Assembly: GCF_014349105.1 (NCBI RefSeq)
Contig: NZ_JACSJI010000006.1
Span: forward strand, 62,001 to 126,000
Direction: 5' to 3'
From: Caulobacter sp. 17J80-11
Lineage (GTDB): Bacteria > Pseudomonadota > Alphaproteobacteria > Caulobacterales > Caulobacteraceae
Length of the DNA stretch: 64,000 bases
The notes beneath the pieces were generated by a model. That model did no database searches, was not told the origin of the DNA, and worked only from the letters and a program-made list of their open reading frames with translations. Numbering within the stretch: the stretch's first letter is position 1; each line of letters begins with the position of its first letter. Positions 1 to 34,539 of the stretch are shown here, piece after piece. Position numbers and translations under genes: made by a program.

Positions 1-3000
1 CTGGCCCATACGTTCGAGAACTCCGGGACCGTGCGGGCCTGGGCGACCGGCGCCGTCTACGCCGTGCAGGCGTTCGACTTCACCAACTCGGGCGTGATCG
101 AGGCGTTCGGCCTGGACGCGGTGGCCGTCGCGGTCAACCAGGGGCCCTTCTACAATTCCGGAACGATCCGGGCCCAGGACAGCGCCGCCCTCTCCCGCGA
201 GAGCATCGCGGTTCAGATCATCGCGCAGAGTTCGGACGCCACCGCCACCTATGTAAACAACGGCCTGATTGAGGGCGACTACGCGATCCGCGTGTGGAAC
301 CCCTTCATCACCTCGAAATTGGTCACGTCGGAGGTCGTGCAGAACGACGGCGTGATCCGCGGGATCGTCGATCTCGATCTCGGCGACGACCGGGTGATCA
401 ACACCGGCGAGATCGTCGGCCGCATCGAGCTCGGCGCCGGCGCCGACGTCTACGACGGGACCGGCGGGACCCAGACCGGCGGCGTCCACGGCGGCTTTGG
501 GGCCGACCGGCTGACCGGCGGCGACGGGACCGAGGTCTTCTTCGGCGAGAGCGGCGCGGACGTCATCTCGGGCGGCGCCGGCGACGACCTGATCGACGGC
601 GGTCTGGGCTCCGACCAGCTCGACGGCGGGGCCGGCTACGACACGCTGTCCTTCGAGACCGCGATCACGACCGTCACGGTGGATCTGGCGGCTGGGACCG
701 CGTCGTCCACGGGGACCGACGCCGTGACCGGCTTCGAGCACGTGATCGGCGGGCGCTACGACGACACCCTCGCAGGGGCGTCCGGCGCCGAGCGGCTGGA
801 CGGCGGCGAGGGGAACGACGTCCTCGACGGCCGCGCCGGCGCCGACCAGCTGGCGGGCGGCCGCGGGGAGGACGTGCTGACCGGCGGGGCCGGCGACGAC
901 GCCTTCGTGTTCGTGGCGGGCGACGGCCGCGACGTGGTCGCCGACTTCACCGCCGGCGGCGGCGAGGACCGGCTGGTCGTCTACGGCTACTCGGGCTACC
1001 GCGAACTGCGCCAGGTCGGGGCTGACACCCTGGTGGTGCTGTCGCCCTTCGACTCGGTCCTGCTGAAGAACGTGCAGGCGTCGTCGCTGACAGCCGCGGA
1101 CTTCAGCTTCAATCCGCAAGCGCCGGCTCAGACGCCCTCGGCGCCCCGGCCGGCCGGCGGGGGCGAGCCGACGGTCGACTACGCGGACGACCTGTGGGTG
1201 GCGTCGGGCGAGACCGTTCGGATCACCGGTTCGATCCGCGGCTTCACGGCCATGGGCGGCGCGGATCTCGTCAACGAAGGGATCGTCACCGTCGAGACCG
1301 AGCTGATCGGCACGGGCGGCATCCTCGACGCAGGGGGCGGCGTTTTCGACAACCGCACCGGCGCCGTCTTCCACGTCGAGGGGCCGCACGCGACCGGCGT
1401 CGCCTCGTACTCCGGTGGAATGCAGATCAAGAACGCAGGATTGTTCGAGATTCTGACGACCGGCTTCGCGACTGGATACTACTCCGCATTCGGCGTCCTG
1501 CAGAACTTAGGTACCTTCCGCGTCGTAGGGGACGACGCTACGGGCGTGTACTCCATCAACGATCTGAGCTTCTCGAATACAGGCCTGATCGAGGTGGTCG
1601 GCGAGACGCGGGCGGTCGGTATCGAGATCGAGATGCCCGATCATTGGTCGTCTTTCGCCAACTACGGCGAGATCCGCGTGGCCGCCGGATCGGCGGGCGA
1701 GAGCGTCGGCGTGCTGTTCGGCGAAGCTCGTTCGACCCCGAACATGCCGAAGGTGTTCGAAAACTACGGGCTGATCGAGGCCGAGTGGGCGTTCATGGCC
1801 TCCGCCTGGTCCAGCACGCCGGGCGGGCCGATCTCGATCGTCAACGCCGGCGTCATCCACGGCCGCATCTCGCTGCTCGCCGAGCAGGACCAGATCCTCA
1901 ACACCGGTGAGATCGTCGGCCGCATCGACCTGTACGGCGGGAACGATGTCTACGACGGGGCCGCGGGCCTGCAGTCCGGCGGCGGGATCTACGCCGGCGA
2001 CGGCAATGACGTCGTACGCGCCGGCGCCGGCGCGCAGGAGCTGTTCGGCGGGGCGGGGGACGACCTGCTCGCCGGCGGCGCGGGGGACGACCTGCTCGAC
2101 GGCGGCGCCGGCTTCGACATCGCCGACTACACCGCTGCGGACGGGAACCTGACCATCAGCCTGGCGATCGAGAGCCAGGACGTGGGGGCCGACCTCGGGA
2201 CCGACCGGCTGGTGGGGATCGAGGGCCTGTTCGGCGGGCGCGGCGCCGACCGGCTCACCGGCTCCGGCGGCGCGGACCTGCTGGCCGGCGGTCTGGGCGA
2301 CGACGTGCTGACCGGCGGCGCCGGCGCCGACCGTTTCATGTTCAAGCTGGACGGCGGGAACGATGTCGTCACCGACTTCCAGGTCGGCGTGGACGTGATC
2401 GACCTGTCGGGCCAATATGGATTCCTGCGCTATGTCGAACTGCGTCAGGTCGGCGCCGACACCCTGGTGGTGCTCTCGAATTCCCAGAGCGTCCTGCTGA
2501 AGAACGTGACGGCGTCGTCGCTCACCAACGCGTCCTTCCGCTTCGTCAGCGAAACCGATCCACGTGACATCACCGGAACGGCGGCGGCGGACGTCCTCAC
2601 CGGCGCGTCCGGCGACGACACTCTGACCGGCTTGGAGGGCGACGACGTTCTCTACGGGCGCGCGGGCCGGGACGTGCTGTCGGGCGGCGCCGGCAACGAC
2701 TTCCTGCATGGTGGCACGGGCAACGACCGGCTCGACGGCGGCGACGGCGACGACACGGTCGACTACTCCGACGCCGGCACCCAGGTGCTCGTCTGGTTGG
2801 GGAGCAACAACACCGCCAGCAATACAGAGGGCAGCGATGTTCTCGTCTCCATCGAGAACGCGATCGGCTCCTACACTGACGACTTACTCTCCGGCAACGA
2901 CGCCGCCAACCGGCTGTCGGGCCTCGCGGGGCCTGACAGGCTCTATGGGTTCGGCGGCGACGACCTGCTGACAGGCGGCGCGGGCGATGACAGGCTCGAC

Positions 3001-23006: not shown

Positions 23007-25193
23007 TCAGGCCGCGGGCGACAGTTCCGCGGCCTGGGCCTGCTCCACGAGCGCGTCCAGGGCCCCGATCAGGTCGCGGACCAGATCGTCCTCGTGCTCC
23101 AGCCCGACCGAGACGCGAAGCAAGGAGTCGCCGATGCCGGCGCGGCGACGCGCGTCCGGATCCATGGCCGCATGGGTCATGGTGGCCGGGTGGGCGATCA
23201 GGCTCTCCACCCCGCCCAGCGACTCCGCCAGGGTGAAGACGCTGACGCCTTCGACGAGACGGCGCACGTCGTCGACGCCGCCGGCCAGCTCGAAGCTCAG
23301 CATGGCCCCGAAGCCGGACTGCTGGCGCTTGGCGATCTCGTGGCCCGGATGGCCGGGCAGGCCGGGATAGTGCACCGCGCGCACGGCCGGATGGACGGCC
23401 AGGGCCTCGGCCAGCTTCTGGGCGGTGACCTGCTGGCGCTCGACCCGCGCGAACAGGGTGCGCACGCCGCGGAGCGTCAGGTAAGCGTCGAACGGCGAGC
23501 CGGTCACGCCCAGGCAGTTGGCCCACCAGGTCAGGCGCTGGACGTCGTCCGGATCGGCCGCCACGACCGCGCCGCCGACCACGTCGGAGTGACCGTTCAC
23601 GTACTTGGTGGTGGAGTGGATCACGAGGTCCGCGCCCAGCCGGATCGGCTGCTGCAGGGCCGGCGACAGGAAGGTGTTGTCGACCGCGACCTTGGCTCCG
23701 ACCGCCTTGGCCTTGCGGCAGACCTCGGCGATGTCGACCAGGCGCATCAGCGGGTTGGACGGGCTTTCGATCAGCACCAGTTTCGGCCGTAGCGCCAGGG
23801 CGGCGTCCAGGGCCGCCGCGTCGGTCTGGTCGACGAACTCGACCTGGAAATGGCCCTTGCGCTGGCGGGCGCAGAGCAGGCGGTGGGTGCCGCCGTAGCA
23901 GTCATGCGGGGCCAGCAGCAGGTCGCCGGGCTCCAACTCGTGCAGCGCCAGGTCGACGGCGGCCATGCCGGTGGCGACCACCACCGCGCCGGCGCCGCCC
24001 TCGAGCTCCGCCAGGGTCTCGCCCAGCAGGTCGCGGGTGGGGTTGCCCGAGCGGGTGTAGTCGTAGCGCCGCTTCTGGTCGAAGCCGGCGAAGCTGTAAT
24101 TGCTGGACAGGTGCAGCGGCGGCATCACCGAGCCGAACGCCGGATCGCGATCGACGCCGGAGCGCGCCGCGGCGGTACAGGGGTGGATCGGCTGGGACAC
24201 GGCGGACTCCTGGGAGGCGGGAATGACGGCGGGGGAGGGCGCTGCGCCCTCGGCGAAGAAGCGGCGGAGGACGGAGGCGACCGCGTCGTCCTCCTTCAGG
24301 AAGGCGTCGTGGCCGTAGAGCGAGGGGCGCACGACCAGATCGGTCAGGGCGGGCAGGCGCCGCGCCAGGTCCTGCATGTCGGCCAGCGGCACCAGCCGGT
24401 CGGTGTCGAAGGCCAGCAGGGTGGTGGGCGCGACGACCGCCTCGGGGCGCACCCGGTGGCGGTCCATGCTGTCGGACAGGGCGATCCAGCGCGCCTCGGC
24501 CATCAGCTCGGGATAGGCCCGGCCCCGCGCGATCAGGTAGTCGCAGACCGGGTAGGCGCCGCCGGCCTCGGCCGGGGCCTCGCCGGCGAAGCGCTGCGCG
24601 AACTCGTCTGGCGTGCGGTAGGTGGTCATGGCCAGCTCGCGGGCCAGGGCGATGCCGTCGGCCGGGCGGCCGACTTCGCGGGCGAAGGCCAGGATGCGGC
24701 GCTGAATGCCGCGCCAGGCAGTGGCCATCGGGTGGGCCCGGTGGGCGGCGGAGATCACCAGCAGCCGTTCCAGCCGTTCGGGAAACCGCTCGGCGAAGGC
24801 CAGGCCGACCATGCCGCCGTAGGATGCGCCGACCCAGGCCGCCGCGCGTTCAACGCCGGCGGCGTCCAAGGCCAGGGCCAGCAGGCGGGCCTGGTCGCCG
24901 GTCGTCAGCGTCGGCGGCGTGCTCGCGCCTTCCGGGACGAAGTCGAAGCCCAGCACCTGCAGGCGCTCGAGATCGACCGGGCCGCCGGGGCGCACCACCT
25001 GCGGCCACCAGTCGGCCGCGTCGCGGCCGCTGGACACGCCGCCGGCGACGACCACGACGGGGGCGCCCGCCCGACCCTGCAGCCGGGCGCGGATATGCGT
25101 CTGCTCCAGCCGGCCGCCGGCCTCCAGCCGGAAGCTGTCGGGGATGGCGACTTCGAAGTCGCGTGCGCCGGTTTGTTCGTTCGCCGAAGTCAT
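23007..25193 (-). CDS. metX-metB: MetX-MetB fusion: homoserine O-acyltransferase / cystathionine gamma-synthase
   Basis: This 728-residue protein starts at ATG 25193 (upstream GGAGGCGGAAGAAGG). Residues about 1-325 form a MetX-type alpha/beta hydrolase that acylates homoserine: nucleophile S124 in GASYGGM, D265 in FDTDRLVP, H295 in YGHDAF. After a linker, residues about 345-725 match cystathionine gamma-synthase closely: VMPPLHLSSNYSF, ARSG-like YDYTRSGNPTRD, APHDCYGG, and PLP lysine K530 in HSTTKYVNGH. One polypeptide would thus make the acylated homoserine and use it with cysteine. Whether the acyl donor is acetyl- or succinyl-CoA is not decided here. A SAM-I riboswitch precedes it, and metL is divergent. 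Confidence 0.92.
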   Translation of the reverse strand: MTSANEQTGARDFEVAIPDSFRLEAGGRLEQTHIRARLQGRAGAPVVVVAGGVSSGRDAADWWPQVVRPGGPVDLERLQVLGFDFVPEGASTPPTLTTGDQARLLALALDAAGVERAAAWVGASYGGMVGLAFAERFPERLERLLVISAAHRAHPMATAWRGIQRRILAFAREVGRPADGIALARELAMTTYRTPDEFAQRFAGEAPAEAGGAYPVCDYLIARGRAYPELMAEARWIALSDSMDRHRVRPEAVVAPTTLLAFDTDRLVPLADMQDLARRLPALTDLVVRPSLYGHDAFLKEDDAVASVLRRFFAEGAAPSPAVIPASQESAVSQPIHPCTAAARSGVDRDPAFGSVMPPLHLSSNYSFAGFDQKRRYDYTRSGNPTRDLLGETLAELEGGAGAVVVATGMAAVDLALHELEPGDLLLAPHDCYGGTHRLLCARQRKGHFQVEFVDQTDAAALDAALALRPKLVLIESPSNPLMRLVDIAEVCRKAKAVGAKVAVDNTFLSPALQQPIRLGADLVIHSTTKYVNGHSDVVGGAVVAADPDDVQRLTWWANCLGVTGSPFDAYLTLRGVRTLFARVERQQVTAQKLAEALAVHPAVRAVHYPGLPGHPGHEIAKRQQSGFGAMLSFELAGGVDDVRRLVEGVSVFTLAESLGGVESLIAHPATMTHAAMDPDARRRAGIGDSLLRVSVGLEHEDDLVRDLIGALDALVEQAQAAELSPAA
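23008..23036. terminator. Hairpin at the convergent SIMPL / metX-metB junction
   Basis: CAGGCCGCGG (23008-23017) and CCGCGGCCTG (23027-23036) form a perfect 10-bp stem with a 9-base loop, nine bases past the SIMPL stop and inside the last codons of metX-metB. It is a likely transcript end for the upstream gene. Confidence 0.5.
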
Positions 25194-25201
25194 CGGCCTT
25201 C

Positions 25202-25259
25202 TTCCGCCTCCCACTCAGGAGAGCTCCGGCGGAAACGAAAGACCGTGAAGCGCGCACGG
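25202..25259 (-). promoter_or_regulatory. Candidate expression platform of the SAM riboswitch
   Basis: Two alternative structures lie between the aptamer and the metX-metB start. On the minus strand CCGTG and CACGG (25259-25243) form a short stem followed by the T-rich TCTTTCGTTT, terminator-like. TTCCGCC and GGCGGAA (arms 25228-25234 and 25202-25208) form a 7-bp stem that would mask the ribosome-binding site. Which one operates is not decided by the sequence. Confidence 0.45.
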
Positions 25260-25280
25260 CCCTTGGGCGGCATGCGCTCC

Positions 25281-25385
25281 ACTCATCTGTCGCGGACCTG
25301 AGGTCCCCGCAGGAGTTGGCACCTTGCGCGAAGCGCAGGTTGCCCCGGCGTCAAAGGGCCTGTCCCTCAGCCGGTCTCGATGAGT
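25281..25385 (-). ncRNA. SAM-I (S-box) riboswitch
   Basis: The minus strand carries the S-box core in order: P1 arm ACTCATC, GAG, the conserved GAGGGACAGGCCC segment, GACGCCGGGGCAACC, a small stem with a CGCTTCGCG loop, AAGGTGCCAACTCCTGC, and GACAGATGAGT closing P1 with seven perfect pairs. These conserved blocks are diagnostic of the SAM-I class. It lies 88 bases upstream of the metX-metB start and should lower expression when S-adenosylmethionine is high. Confidence 0.93.
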
Positions 25386-25391
25386 GAGTTC

Positions 25392-25421
25392 ATGCTGCGG
25401 CGCGGCGACCGACTTCGTCAA
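25392..25421 (-). promoter_or_regulatory. Promoter of the riboswitch / metX-metB transcript
   Basis: On the minus strand TTGACG (25421-25416), an 18-base spacer and CAGCAT (25397-25392) place transcription start about at the first base of the riboswitch P1 helix. TTGACG is the usual -35 of Caulobacter housekeeping promoters; the -10 match is weaker. Confidence 0.5.
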
Positions 25422-25447: not shown

Positions 25448-25482
25448 TTGACGATCGGATCGGCTTGCGTCGTTCCTAGAGA
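25448..25482 (+). promoter_or_regulatory. metL: Possible metL promoter
   Basis: TTGACG at 25448-25453 is followed 21 bases later by CCTAGAGA, which partly matches the Caulobacter -10 GCTANAWC. Spacing is not ideal. The rest of the 25,422-25,639 gap shows nothing else certain. Confidence 0.3.
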
Positions 25483-25639
25483 CGCGCCGATTTGATCATC
25501 AGCTTGCGGGCGCGGTAGAAATGCAGCTAAAGCGGGATGTGCGGCGCGTGAAATCGCGCCTGCACTCTGGCTCGACAGCTATTTCTCCGTCATCGCAGTT
25601 GGATTTGTTTGCGGCGCGCCGGCCTGTTGGAGCGCTGTC

Positions 25640-27352
25640 GTGACCAAACCTGTGATCGTCCTGAAATTCGGCGGATCTGTTCTTCGTGGCGAAGAATCCG
25701 TCGCGTCGGCCGTTTCCGAAATCTACCGCTACGTCCGCCAGGGCAGCGCCGTCGTGGCCGTGGTGTCGGCCTTCCACGGTGAGACGGATCGGCTGCTGCG
25801 CCACGCGGCGACCTACGGCGCCGCACAACGCGGCCGGGCCACGCCCTACCTGGTGGCGCTTGGCGAGACGCGGTCGGCGGCGCTGCTTGCGCTGGCGGCC
25901 GAGCGCGTCGGCCTGCAGACCCGCCTGCGGCCCCCGCACGAGATCGGCCTGCGGGCCGGCGGCGACCGGCATGACGCCTCGCCGGTCGACGTGGACACGG
26001 ATCGCCTGCGCCGCGACCTCGACGAGGCCGACGTGGTCGTGGTCCCGGGCTTCGTCGCGGTCGGCGAGCACGGCGAGACGGTGCTGCTGGGGCGCGGCGG
26101 CACCGACCTCAGCGCCGTGTTCCTGGCCGCGCGGCTGGGGGCGCGGGTGCGCCTGCTGAAGGACGTGGACGGGGTCTACGACCGCGACCCGGCGCTGAAC
26201 CGGGCCGGGGCGCGCCCGTTCGCCCGCATCACCTGGGCCGAGGCCGAGCGGCTGGCCCATCCCCTAGTGCAGGACAAGGCGGTGCGCCTGGCTGCGGCCG
26301 TCGAGTTGCCGATCGAGGTGGCGGCGCTTGGAGCGGCCTACGAGACGGTGATCGGGCCCGACACCGCCGTGCGCATCGCCGCCCCGCCGGCGGGCGAGGC
26401 CTTGCGGGTGGCGCTGCTGGGCTGCGGGGTGGTCGGCGGCGGCGTGCTGGAGCGGCTGCTGGACGATCCGGAGCGGTTCGAGCCGGTGGCCGTGCTGGTC
26501 CGAGACGTCGGGCGGCGCGCCTGGCACCGGGCCGGCGGCCTGTTCACCGACGAGGTGGAGGAACTGGCGAGCGCCGACGCCGACGTGCTGGTCGACACCG
26601 GCTGCGGGCTGGAGCCGAGCTCGGACCTGATCGAGGCGTACCTCGCCCGCGGCGGCGCCGTCGTCAGCGCCAACAAACAGGCGGTCAACGCCGCACGGAC
26701 CCGTTTCGCCGCAGCCATAGGGGCCGGCGGCGGACGGCTGCTGCACTCGGCGGCCGTCGGCGGCGGCGCGCCCTTCCTCGAGGCCGCCGCGCGATGTCGT
26801 CCCGACGGCGTCGTCGGGATTGAGGGCGTGGTCAACGGCACCTGCAACTTCGTGCTGGAGCGCCTGGCCGAGGGCCTGACGCTGGACGCGGCCGTGCACG
26901 CCGCCACCCGCGCGGGCTTCGCTGAGGCCGATCCGTCGGCCGACCTGGAAGGGCGTGACGCGGCCGCGAAGCTGGAGCTGCTGGCCCGCGCCGCGGCGCC
27001 TGACGCGCCGTTCGTGTTCAAGGGCGCCGACGTGCTCGACGCCAGCGTCACGACGCCGGCGCAGGGGCGCCTGAAACAGGTCGCCCGCGCCGTGCTCGGG
27101 CCGCACGGCTGGACCGGCGAGGTTCGCCTGGTCGCCTTGCTCGATAGCGATTTCCTGGCCGGAGCGGAGGCGGAGGAGAACCGCCTGCGCCTGACCCTGG
27201 CCGACGGCCGGCAGGTGCACACGGCCGGCAAGGGCGCCGGCCGCTGGCCTACGGTTGAGGCGGTGATGGCCGACCTCTACGACCTGCGCCGCGAGGGCCG
27301 CGCCGCCGCCGTCAGCCGAACGGCGCCTCGAGCGAAGGCGACGGCTGGGTGA
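25640..27352 (+). CDS. metL: Bifunctional aspartokinase / homoserine dehydrogenase without ACT domains
   Basis: This 570-residue fusion starts at GTG 25640, with GGAG eight bases upstream. The aspartate kinase part (residues about 5-245) has KFGGS at 9-13 and LLKDVDGVYDRDP. The homoserine dehydrogenase begins with a Rossmann motif GCGVVGGG near residue 261 and continues with NKQAVN, VNGTCNF and the catalytic-lysine segment GRDAAAKLELL. It supplies homoserine for methionine, and possibly threonine. Enterobacterial ThrA/MetL proteins have about 810 residues with an ACT-type linker; here the kinase leads directly into the dehydrogenase, so allosteric inhibition by threonine or lysine through ACT domains is not expected. 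It is divergent from metX-metB. Its 3' end overlaps the convergent peptidase gene by 41 bp. Confidence 0.93.
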   Translation: MTKPVIVLKFGGSVLRGEESVASAVSEIYRYVRQGSAVVAVVSAFHGETDRLLRHAATYGAAQRGRATPYLVALGETRSAALLALAAERVGLQTRLRPPHEIGLRAGGDRHDASPVDVDTDRLRRDLDEADVVVVPGFVAVGEHGETVLLGRGGTDLSAVFLAARLGARVRLLKDVDGVYDRDPALNRAGARPFARITWAEAERLAHPLVQDKAVRLAAAVELPIEVAALGAAYETVIGPDTAVRIAAPPAGEALRVALLGCGVVGGGVLERLLDDPERFEPVAVLVRDVGRRAWHRAGGLFTDEVEELASADADVLVDTGCGLEPSSDLIEAYLARGGAVVSANKQAVNAARTRFAAAIGAGGGRLLHSAAVGGGAPFLEAAARCRPDGVVGIEGVVNGTCNFVLERLAEGLTLDAAVHAATRAGFAEADPSADLEGRDAAAKLELLARAAAPDAPFVFKGADVLDASVTTPAQGRLKQVARAVLGPHGWTGEVRLVALLDSDFLAGAEAEENRLRLTLADGRQVHTAGKGAGRWPTVEAVMADLYDLRREGRAAAVSRTAPRAKATAG

Positions 27353-34464: not shown

Positions 34465-34539
34465 TGGTGGACGCGACAGGGATTGAACCTGTGACCCCCT
34501 CGGTGTGAACGAGGTGCTCTCCCGCTGAGCTACGCGTCC
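34465..34539 (-). tRNA. tRNA-Val (anticodon CAC)
   Basis: The minus strand folds into a full cloverleaf: acceptor GGACGCG/CGCGTCC, D-arm with GCTCAGCGGGAGAGC, anticodon stem CCTCG/CGAGG with loop TTCACAC (anticodon CAC, reading GUG), variable loop, T-arm ACAGG-TTCAATC-CCTGT, discriminator A and an encoded CCA. Length is 75 bases including CCA. Confidence 0.97.

Follow-up and report, generated by a model that had tools for sequence, protein, structure and literature searches.

The SAM-II riboswitch (RF00521) is presented by Corbino et al. (2005, PMC1273637) as one stem plus a pseudoknot, with conserved GAUUUG, CUUGC and GCUAAA blocks, located upstream of methionine genes. In Xanthomonas campestris (Tang et al. 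2020, PMC7270179), an S box (SAM-I) riboswitch heads the met operon, in which homoserine acyltransferase, metB and homoserine dehydrogenase genes lie together under one switch. It has no intrinsic terminator but carries a hairpin masking the Shine-Dalgarno (SD) sequence, which persists when SAM is absent. Arrangements of two SAM classes in series on one transcript have also been recorded, and a 2022 review in RNA Biology (PMC9481103) gives seven cases of SAM-II followed by SAM-I/IV and two in the inverse order. An earlier survey (Barrick and Breaker 2007) found both SAM classes in no single species.

The locus examined here lies in a 64,000 nt stretch (the window; G000:C26:62001-126000) of the 3.8 Mb genome of Caulobacter sp. 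17J80-11. It resembles the published tandem arrangements in that two SAM classes are found near each other in one genome. However, the two unrelated aptamers are back to back in the 446 base intergenic region between metXB and metL, on opposite strands, pointing apart and 87 bases from each other (cmscan), and each precedes a separate gene; hence they do not share one transcript as tandem riboswitches do. Whereas X. campestris has a single operon, the window has a metX-metB fusion and a divergent metL behind a second switch of another class. No report of SAM-I and SAM-II placed on the two strands of a single intergenic region was found in the open literature, covered mostly as titles and abstract openings. 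The features of the locus are as follows.

23007-25193, minus strand: metX-metB fusion (metXB), homoserine O-acyltransferase plus cystathionine gamma-synthase, 728 aa (Pfam, NCBIfam).
25197-25211, minus strand: SD region of metXB, GGAGGCGGAAGAAGG (coordinates, state folds).
25211-25231, minus strand: candidate switching strand, predicted to pair with aptamer nt 1-18 in the ligand-free state or to join the SD-masking hairpin (duplex, state folds).
25250-25279, minus strand: GC-rich hairpin directly 3' of the SAM-I aptamer, without a T run (fold with the aptamer enforced).
25280-25386, minus strand: SAM-I (S box) aptamer, P1 strands CACUCAUC and GAUGAGUG (RF00162, 90 bits).
25392-25421, minus strand: possible metXB promoter, TTGACG, 18 bases, CAGCAT (by eye).
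25474-25551, plus strand: apparent SAM-II-type aptamer upstream of metL (RF00521, 32.0 bits; model R3, 72.9 bits).
25484-25513, plus strand: SAM-II P1 helix, GCGCC (25484-25488) with GGCGC (25509-25513), and its loop (cmscan, R3 alignments).
25497-25539, plus strand: SAM-II pseudoknot, CAUC within 25497-25503 with GAUG within 25532-25539 (helix test).
25539-25565, plus strand: hairpin GUGCGGCGCG and CGCGCCUGCAC, 3' of SAM-II (coordinates; duplex prediction).
25640-27352, plus strand: metL, aspartokinase-homoserine dehydrogenase fusion, 570 aa, GTG start (Pfam).

The initial annotation had placed a SAM-I riboswitch at 25281-25385, ahead of a metX-metB fusion with metL divergent, and these assignments were borne out. 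RF00162 matched over its full length (1-108) and scored 90 bits, the cut-off being 44.4 (E 4e-20 over the 64 kb; cmscan, Rfam 15); the match reached one base further at each end and was the best-scoring member of Rfam clan CL00012 at the site. The SAM-II model RF00521 gave no competing match on this stretch; it matched 25474-25551 on the plus strand instead. The aptamer is in sense orientation upstream of the fusion, in which the MetX part (residues 3-314) exceeded the cut-off of NCBIfam NF006449 and the MetB part (residues 339-713) that of TIGR02080, cystathionine gamma-synthase. The closest named relative of the fusion, with 93% identity, was found in the sister species Caulobacter sp. 17J65-9 (L028), in which both aptamers are conserved.

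The divergent gene on the plus strand was confirmed to encode an aspartokinase-homoserine dehydrogenase fusion, with AA_kinase, NAD_binding_3 and Homoserine_dh as its only Pfam domains. As no ACT domain was detected in this protein by Pfam search, even at E 10, feedback control of the MetL step, the first step, probably rests on RNA. A DNA similarity search against plasmids returned no match spanning the whole locus. Elsewhere in the window, a tRNA gene was detected at 34468-34539 on the minus strand (67.1 bits).

The distribution of RF00162 was examined among related genomes. Matches occurred in 23 of 119 relatives, a count that includes the genome of the window, in 75 of the 299 Caulobacterales genomes (the order), and in only 8 of 385 genomes of the class at E<=1e-3, 7 of them over the cut-off. 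SAM-II (RF00521) was found in 190 genomes of the same class sample, 166 over the cut-off. These figures agree with the initial annotation, which had regarded SAM-I as unusual and SAM-II as common in alphaproteobacteria and had correctly taken the host for a member of that class. Behind 27 SAM-I loci of the order (L001-L027) lie a metX-like ORF in 23 cases, metN in two and a TonB receptor gene in two, and tblastn confirmed MetX homologues at 19 of the metX loci and at the sister of a twentieth. Among the 344 relatives found for the MetX-MetB fusion, 80 loci were kept, and a model trained on 25 Caulobacterales aptamers placed SAM-I directly upstream in 77 of these, two of which (L028 and L047) had been used to build it; in the other three the match begins no more than 10 bases from a contig end. 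SAM-I before metX was found in three families, and is ordinary for Caulobacterales.

The window's genome carries three SAM-I riboswitches, before metXB, metNIQ and a gene for a TonB-dependent receptor, and an identical set was found in G001, the only other genome of the genus in the comparison set. The second is located at G000:C7:84346-84453 (L002, L177), where the MetN, MetI and MetQ families were matched under their curated cut-offs. The third, at G000:C6:56114-56224 (L003, L176), precedes the receptor gene followed by one for a sodium:dicarboxylate-type symporter, a unit that may serve to take up methionine or some related compound. No report of SAM-I with a TonB receptor was found in the open literature, for which mostly titles and abstract openings were available. 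In other alphaproteobacteria (L121, L122, L123) the SAM-I matches are short, at 83 bases, seemingly without P4, and the ORF behind two of them (L121 and L123) encodes what we take to be an OsmC-family protein.

Two expression platforms, a terminator and a hairpin masking the ribosome-binding site, had been proposed for the SAM-I leader; the second is predicted by the folds, but the first was not recovered. A scan for intrinsic terminators returned 0 terminator-like sites. The segment 25231-25211, which forms the 5' part of the predicted SD-masking hairpin, could form a duplex with aptamer nt 1-18 of -22.1 kcal/mol (z of -2.75 and p of 0.005 relative to dinucleotide shuffles). The mean unpaired fraction predicted at the metXB SD was 0.63 when this duplex was imposed as the ON state, 0.43 when the aptamer was enforced as the OFF state and 0.31 in the unconstrained fold, and the corresponding leader energies were -99.8, -101.7 and -107.8. 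Folding with and without the aptamer constraint recovers the SD-region hairpin, but as the unconstrained fold masks the SD even without ligand, the thermodynamic model alone gives no clean switch. Among 91 SAM-I leaders, which are mutually related, complementarity of aptamer nt 1-18 with the platform reached p<=0.05 in 20 (mean z -0.83), against 4, 5 and 4 for other aptamer segments, and the signal was weak in most Brevundimonas leaders and in that of the sister species (L006, z -0.97). A consensus promoter scan of the locus found no promoter.

The element before metL was absent from the initial description of the locus. It first surfaced when relatives were searched with RF00521 (SAM_alpha), at C26:87474-87551 on the plus strand of the window's own genome. 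The match covers model positions 1-79, the full length, and scores 32.0 bits where the cut-off is 36 (E 2e-5 within 551 bases and 3.3e-5 genome-wide). As this is under the curated cut-off, the element is named a SAM-II-type subtype and not an Rfam member. It points at metL, immediately upstream, and G001 carries an element at the equivalent position (31.6 bits). Seven more genomes of the order gave RF00521 matches of the same kind, with 28-41 bits. A model, R2, was built from nine sequences (the window, G001 and these seven), and another, R3, from 31 relatives with the window's genus left out. R3 scored the window element at 72.9 bits (E 8e-19 for the window alone, 4.8e-17 genome-wide), as the only match in 3.8 Mb. 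It therefore appears, from its sequence, that 25474-25551 is a SAM-II-type aptamer facing metL that has been missed by database cut-offs.

Like RF00521, the subtype has one stem, a pseudoknot and the GAUUUG, CUUGC and GCUAAA blocks, and its alignment retains an invariant core (GCGCCGAUUUGA...UCAGCUUGCGGGCGC...AAAU...GCUAAAG). It differs from RF00521 in its GCGCC/GGCGC P1, in a short, movable pseudoknot helix, in having metL as a target and in scores mostly under or near the Rfam cut-off. P1 is nearly invariant and is therefore silent on covariation. The pseudoknot covaries: over 38 distinct loop/tail pairs the mean best helix score was 10.68, against 8.69 +/- 0.39 in sets with redealt tails, of which 0 of 1000 were as high, a statistic that ignores kinship. 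The helices include CCCCUUC/GGAGGGG, AUGCUC/GAGCAU and GCUUC/GAAGC as well as the CAUC/GAUG of the window, and helices of only three pairs occur in 7 of 41 rows (L134, L148, L162, L164, L166, L167, L172).

R2 matched 91 of the 299 Caulobacterales genomes, in 26 of 55 genera. The subtype was found upstream of metL (L116, L118, L119, L154, L161, L162, L164, L166, L167), metX (L112, L113, L114, L170, L171) and a homoserine dehydrogenase gene (L117, L120, L158, L159), and all of these MetL, MetX and Hom labels except that of L171 are backed by tblastn. Genes resembling metL also follow it in G091, G087, G608, G681, G682, G695 and G710. By eye, the ORF of L172 reads as a LysR-type regulator and that of L115 as metZ-like, the latter with no NCBIfam match and with coordinates possibly out of frame. 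No met gene was seen behind the subtype in L155, L156, L168 or L169, and none was recognisable downstream of the R2/R3 match in G090. Weak matches in G014, G687 and G700 were judged spurious, as no met gene lies behind them. Within the window's own family, R3 matched 5 of the 299 genomes, weakly in G014 and G824, and only G000 and G001 carry the SAM-I/SAM-II pair; G841 lacks SAM-I. When R2 was applied to 100 loci, meaningful scores were obtained only in the window and the sister species. A search of viral contigs for the core pattern returned 0.

Downstream of the aptamer, the 3' arm of the hairpin 25539-25565 could, according to prediction, pair instead with the P1 3' strand (25505-25514). 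The duplex between core and platform in the window had a z of -2.76, and 0 of 100 shuffles were as good. In 35 SAM-II leaders, predicted pairing of the core with the platform reached p<=0.05 in 16 (mean z -1.40), that of the aptamer 3' part in 12 and that of the 5' half in 0. The exact complement CCCGCAAGC is present in 18 of the 35, and the window core finds its match in the hairpin arm 25555-25565. In L161, L164, L166 and L167 (family f4), the metL start codon lies within about 20 bases after the GCUAA block, which would put the ribosome site there under the pseudoknot itself.

SAM-I and SAM-II avoid each other in the order. When the two surveys were treated as one set of 299 genomes, both classes were found at E<=1e-3 in 11, against 22.8 expected if independent (P 3e-4), and in 8 against 22.1 expected without the three spurious matches (11 of 91 and 8 of 88, respectively), a statistic that ignores relatedness. 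In the class sample, both were found in 3 of 385 genomes (G000, G404, G469). In the order, G087, G608, G682, G695 and G710 carry both; SAM-II is at metL in all five, and SAM-I is at metX in G087 and G608. A second head-to-head case was identified in another family (G681), with SAM-II/metL on one strand, SAM-I/metX on the other and one small ORF between. The back-to-back form with only promoters between was seen in two closely related species. Two further loci with the divergent metXB/metL pair (L023 and L033) lack SAM-II before metL. The MetX tree mixes SAM-I and SAM-II rows, with L011 grouping with L113 and L114 (support 97).

Nine Brevundimonas metL leaders also lack SAM-II (L050, L054, L057, L060, L061, L075, L077, L079, L107). 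By eye, these contain a short ORF with many Thr, Ile and Met codons followed by a GC-rich inverted repeat and a T run, and have the look of leader-peptide attenuators.

Taken together, it is likely, with a probability of about 0.8, that the metXB-metL intergenic region contains two SAM-sensing OFF switches of unrelated fold, SAM-I shutting metXB and the SAM-II-type element shutting metL. The aptamers, their genes and, by covariation, the pseudoknot are read from sequence, from which SAM binding and switching are inferred. When SAM is plentiful, the minus-strand SAM-I aptamer would close metXB and the plus-strand SAM-II-type aptamer would close metL. Without SAM, 25231-25211 would invade the 5' strand of the SAM-I aptamer, breaking the SD-masking hairpin; with SAM, the aptamer would retain this strand, the hairpin would form and translation of metXB would stop. 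In the SAM-II-type leader, P1 and the pseudoknot would hold when SAM is present and the hairpin 25539-25565 would form, and without SAM the 3' arm of that hairpin would pair with the P1 3' strand instead. Rho, stalled transcription or access to the ribosome-binding site are candidate routes by which this hairpin could silence metL.

An alternative for metXB is that the SAM-I platform works through premature transcription termination, for which the strong GC hairpin immediately 3' of the aptamer might be cited. However, both a T run and a terminator-like site are absent, and the X. campestris homologue acts chiefly at translation (PMC7270179), making termination unlikely; on the predicted folds, the evidence leans towards masking of the ribosome site as the better fit. 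That homologue also raises the possibility that the metXB leader senses uncharged initiator tRNA in addition to SAM. The two share a gene set, and an SD hairpin is present without SAM in both, in the predicted fold here and in PMC7270179 there, but the tRNA site reported for Xanthomonas is a specific anti-SD sequence, and such sensing is considered improbable here. For metL, only SAM-I might work and the SAM-II match might be a decayed remnant, with metL unregulated or otherwise controlled. The score under the Rfam cut-off would fit this, as would the Brevundimonas leaders with a leader peptide and terminator in place of SAM-II, which indicate that the element can be lost, and metL is divergent from metXB in 33 of the 80 named loci, of which only L028 has SAM-II. 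However, the core blocks are all intact and score highly with R3, which excludes the genus; the core is identical over 60 aligned columns in the sister species, although the stretch between the aptamers is what changed most; and intact relatives with covarying pseudoknots likewise fall under the Rfam cut-off. There is accordingly little reason to expect a remnant, and two working switches are the preferred reading.

The initial annotation had also raised lateral acquisition of the locus, and a gain of the SAM-I-metXB unit from a xanthomonad-like gammaproteobacterium was considered. In its favour, SAM-I precedes a fused MetX-MetB in contigs of Rudaea, Lysobacterales and other gammaproteobacteria and is rare among alphaproteobacteria; the two proteins form one chain in the window's genus and the gammaproteobacterial loci (L028, L029-L046) but are encoded in different frames in Brevundimonas. 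However, in the MetX tree the window lies inside a Caulobacterales clade beside Brevundimonas (SH-aLRT 98 for the order-level group); this tree and that of MetL were quick, midpoint-rooted and made without bootstrap. The MetB half is 72-77% identical to Brevundimonas, whereas the whole is only 46-53% identical to gammaproteobacterial fusions, and the SAM-I/metX arrangement occurs in three Caulobacterales families. The MetL tree puts the window on a long branch beside the family f4 rows (support 90), flagged as long branches meeting, and therefore nothing was drawn from its placement. As MetX is nested inside the order, recent lateral acquisition is not supported; the tree together with the order and class surveys, including the 23 of 27 SAM-I loci before a metX-like ORF, disfavours acquisition by this organism, and such a gammaproteobacterial source is improbable. 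An exchange in the more distant past, at the base of the order or below it, may have occurred, because the SAM-I and metX-metB unit is also found in gammaproteobacterial, acidobacterial and gemmatimonad contigs. In a contig labelled Bordetella sp. (MAG; L104), MetL groups within Brevundimonas, and the label is probably a binning error.

The core of the window's SAM-II element also matched six plasmid records, including Paracoccus, Legionella, Burkholderia, Rhizobium and Saccharopolyspora. Elements in four records were examined (Rhizobium and Saccharopolyspora were left out), and scored 77.4, 65.4, 39.5 and 38.2 bits with R3. The Burkholderia elements (L184, L187) are upstream of metZ, identified as O-succinylhomoserine sulfhydrylase over the cut-off in L184 and by eye in L187, and an inverted repeat ending in or accompanied by a T run lies behind them (by eye). 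In the gammaproteobacterium Legionella adelaidensis, a plasmid element (L186, 1996-2076) is upstream of a metN homologue, its ORF cut by the locus end and its score under the cut-off. The ORF behind the Paracoccus element had no family match.

RF02424 (Bp2_287), a Burkholderia sRNA family, matched the opposite strand of both Burkholderia elements over its whole length (1965-2138, minus strand; 205 and 204 bits). It covers exactly the metZ leader of the SAM-II subtype but models the reverse complement as an sRNA gene, and the family is probably explained as the antisense strand of the subtype. An RF02424 match is also listed at 25485-25589 on the minus strand of the window. Leyn et al. (2014, PMC4239095) described an orphan metXZ element before metX and metZ in beta-proteobacteria. 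It shares with the subtype a pseudoknot, four conserved regions, its position before metX/metZ and a terminator behind; its ligand is not named there. The comparison was made with the text description, by which the subtype may be this metXZ element. No link of metXZ or RF02424 to SAM-II was found in the open literature, again mostly titles and abstract openings.

The finding is the back-to-back pair and an under-annotated SAM-II subtype; the SAM-I assignment itself is correct. A wider reading, held tentatively and at somewhat less than even odds, is that a SAM-II subtype widespread in alpha-, beta- and gammaproteobacteria has been overlooked, under the cut-off or filed on the wrong strand as RF02424, and includes the metXZ element, which would thereby gain its ligand. 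In the window's genus it would be paired with SAM-I, two folds of different affinity closing both methionine entry steps in sequence and not together. As orthologous metX and metL genes carry SAM-I, SAM-II or a leader peptide depending on the genus, riboswitch replacement is traceable gene by gene. With the window pair, two RNA solutions to one sensing task can be compared side by side in a natural setting, within one cell, and through the SAM-II subtype annotation would reach many methionine genes of proteobacteria.
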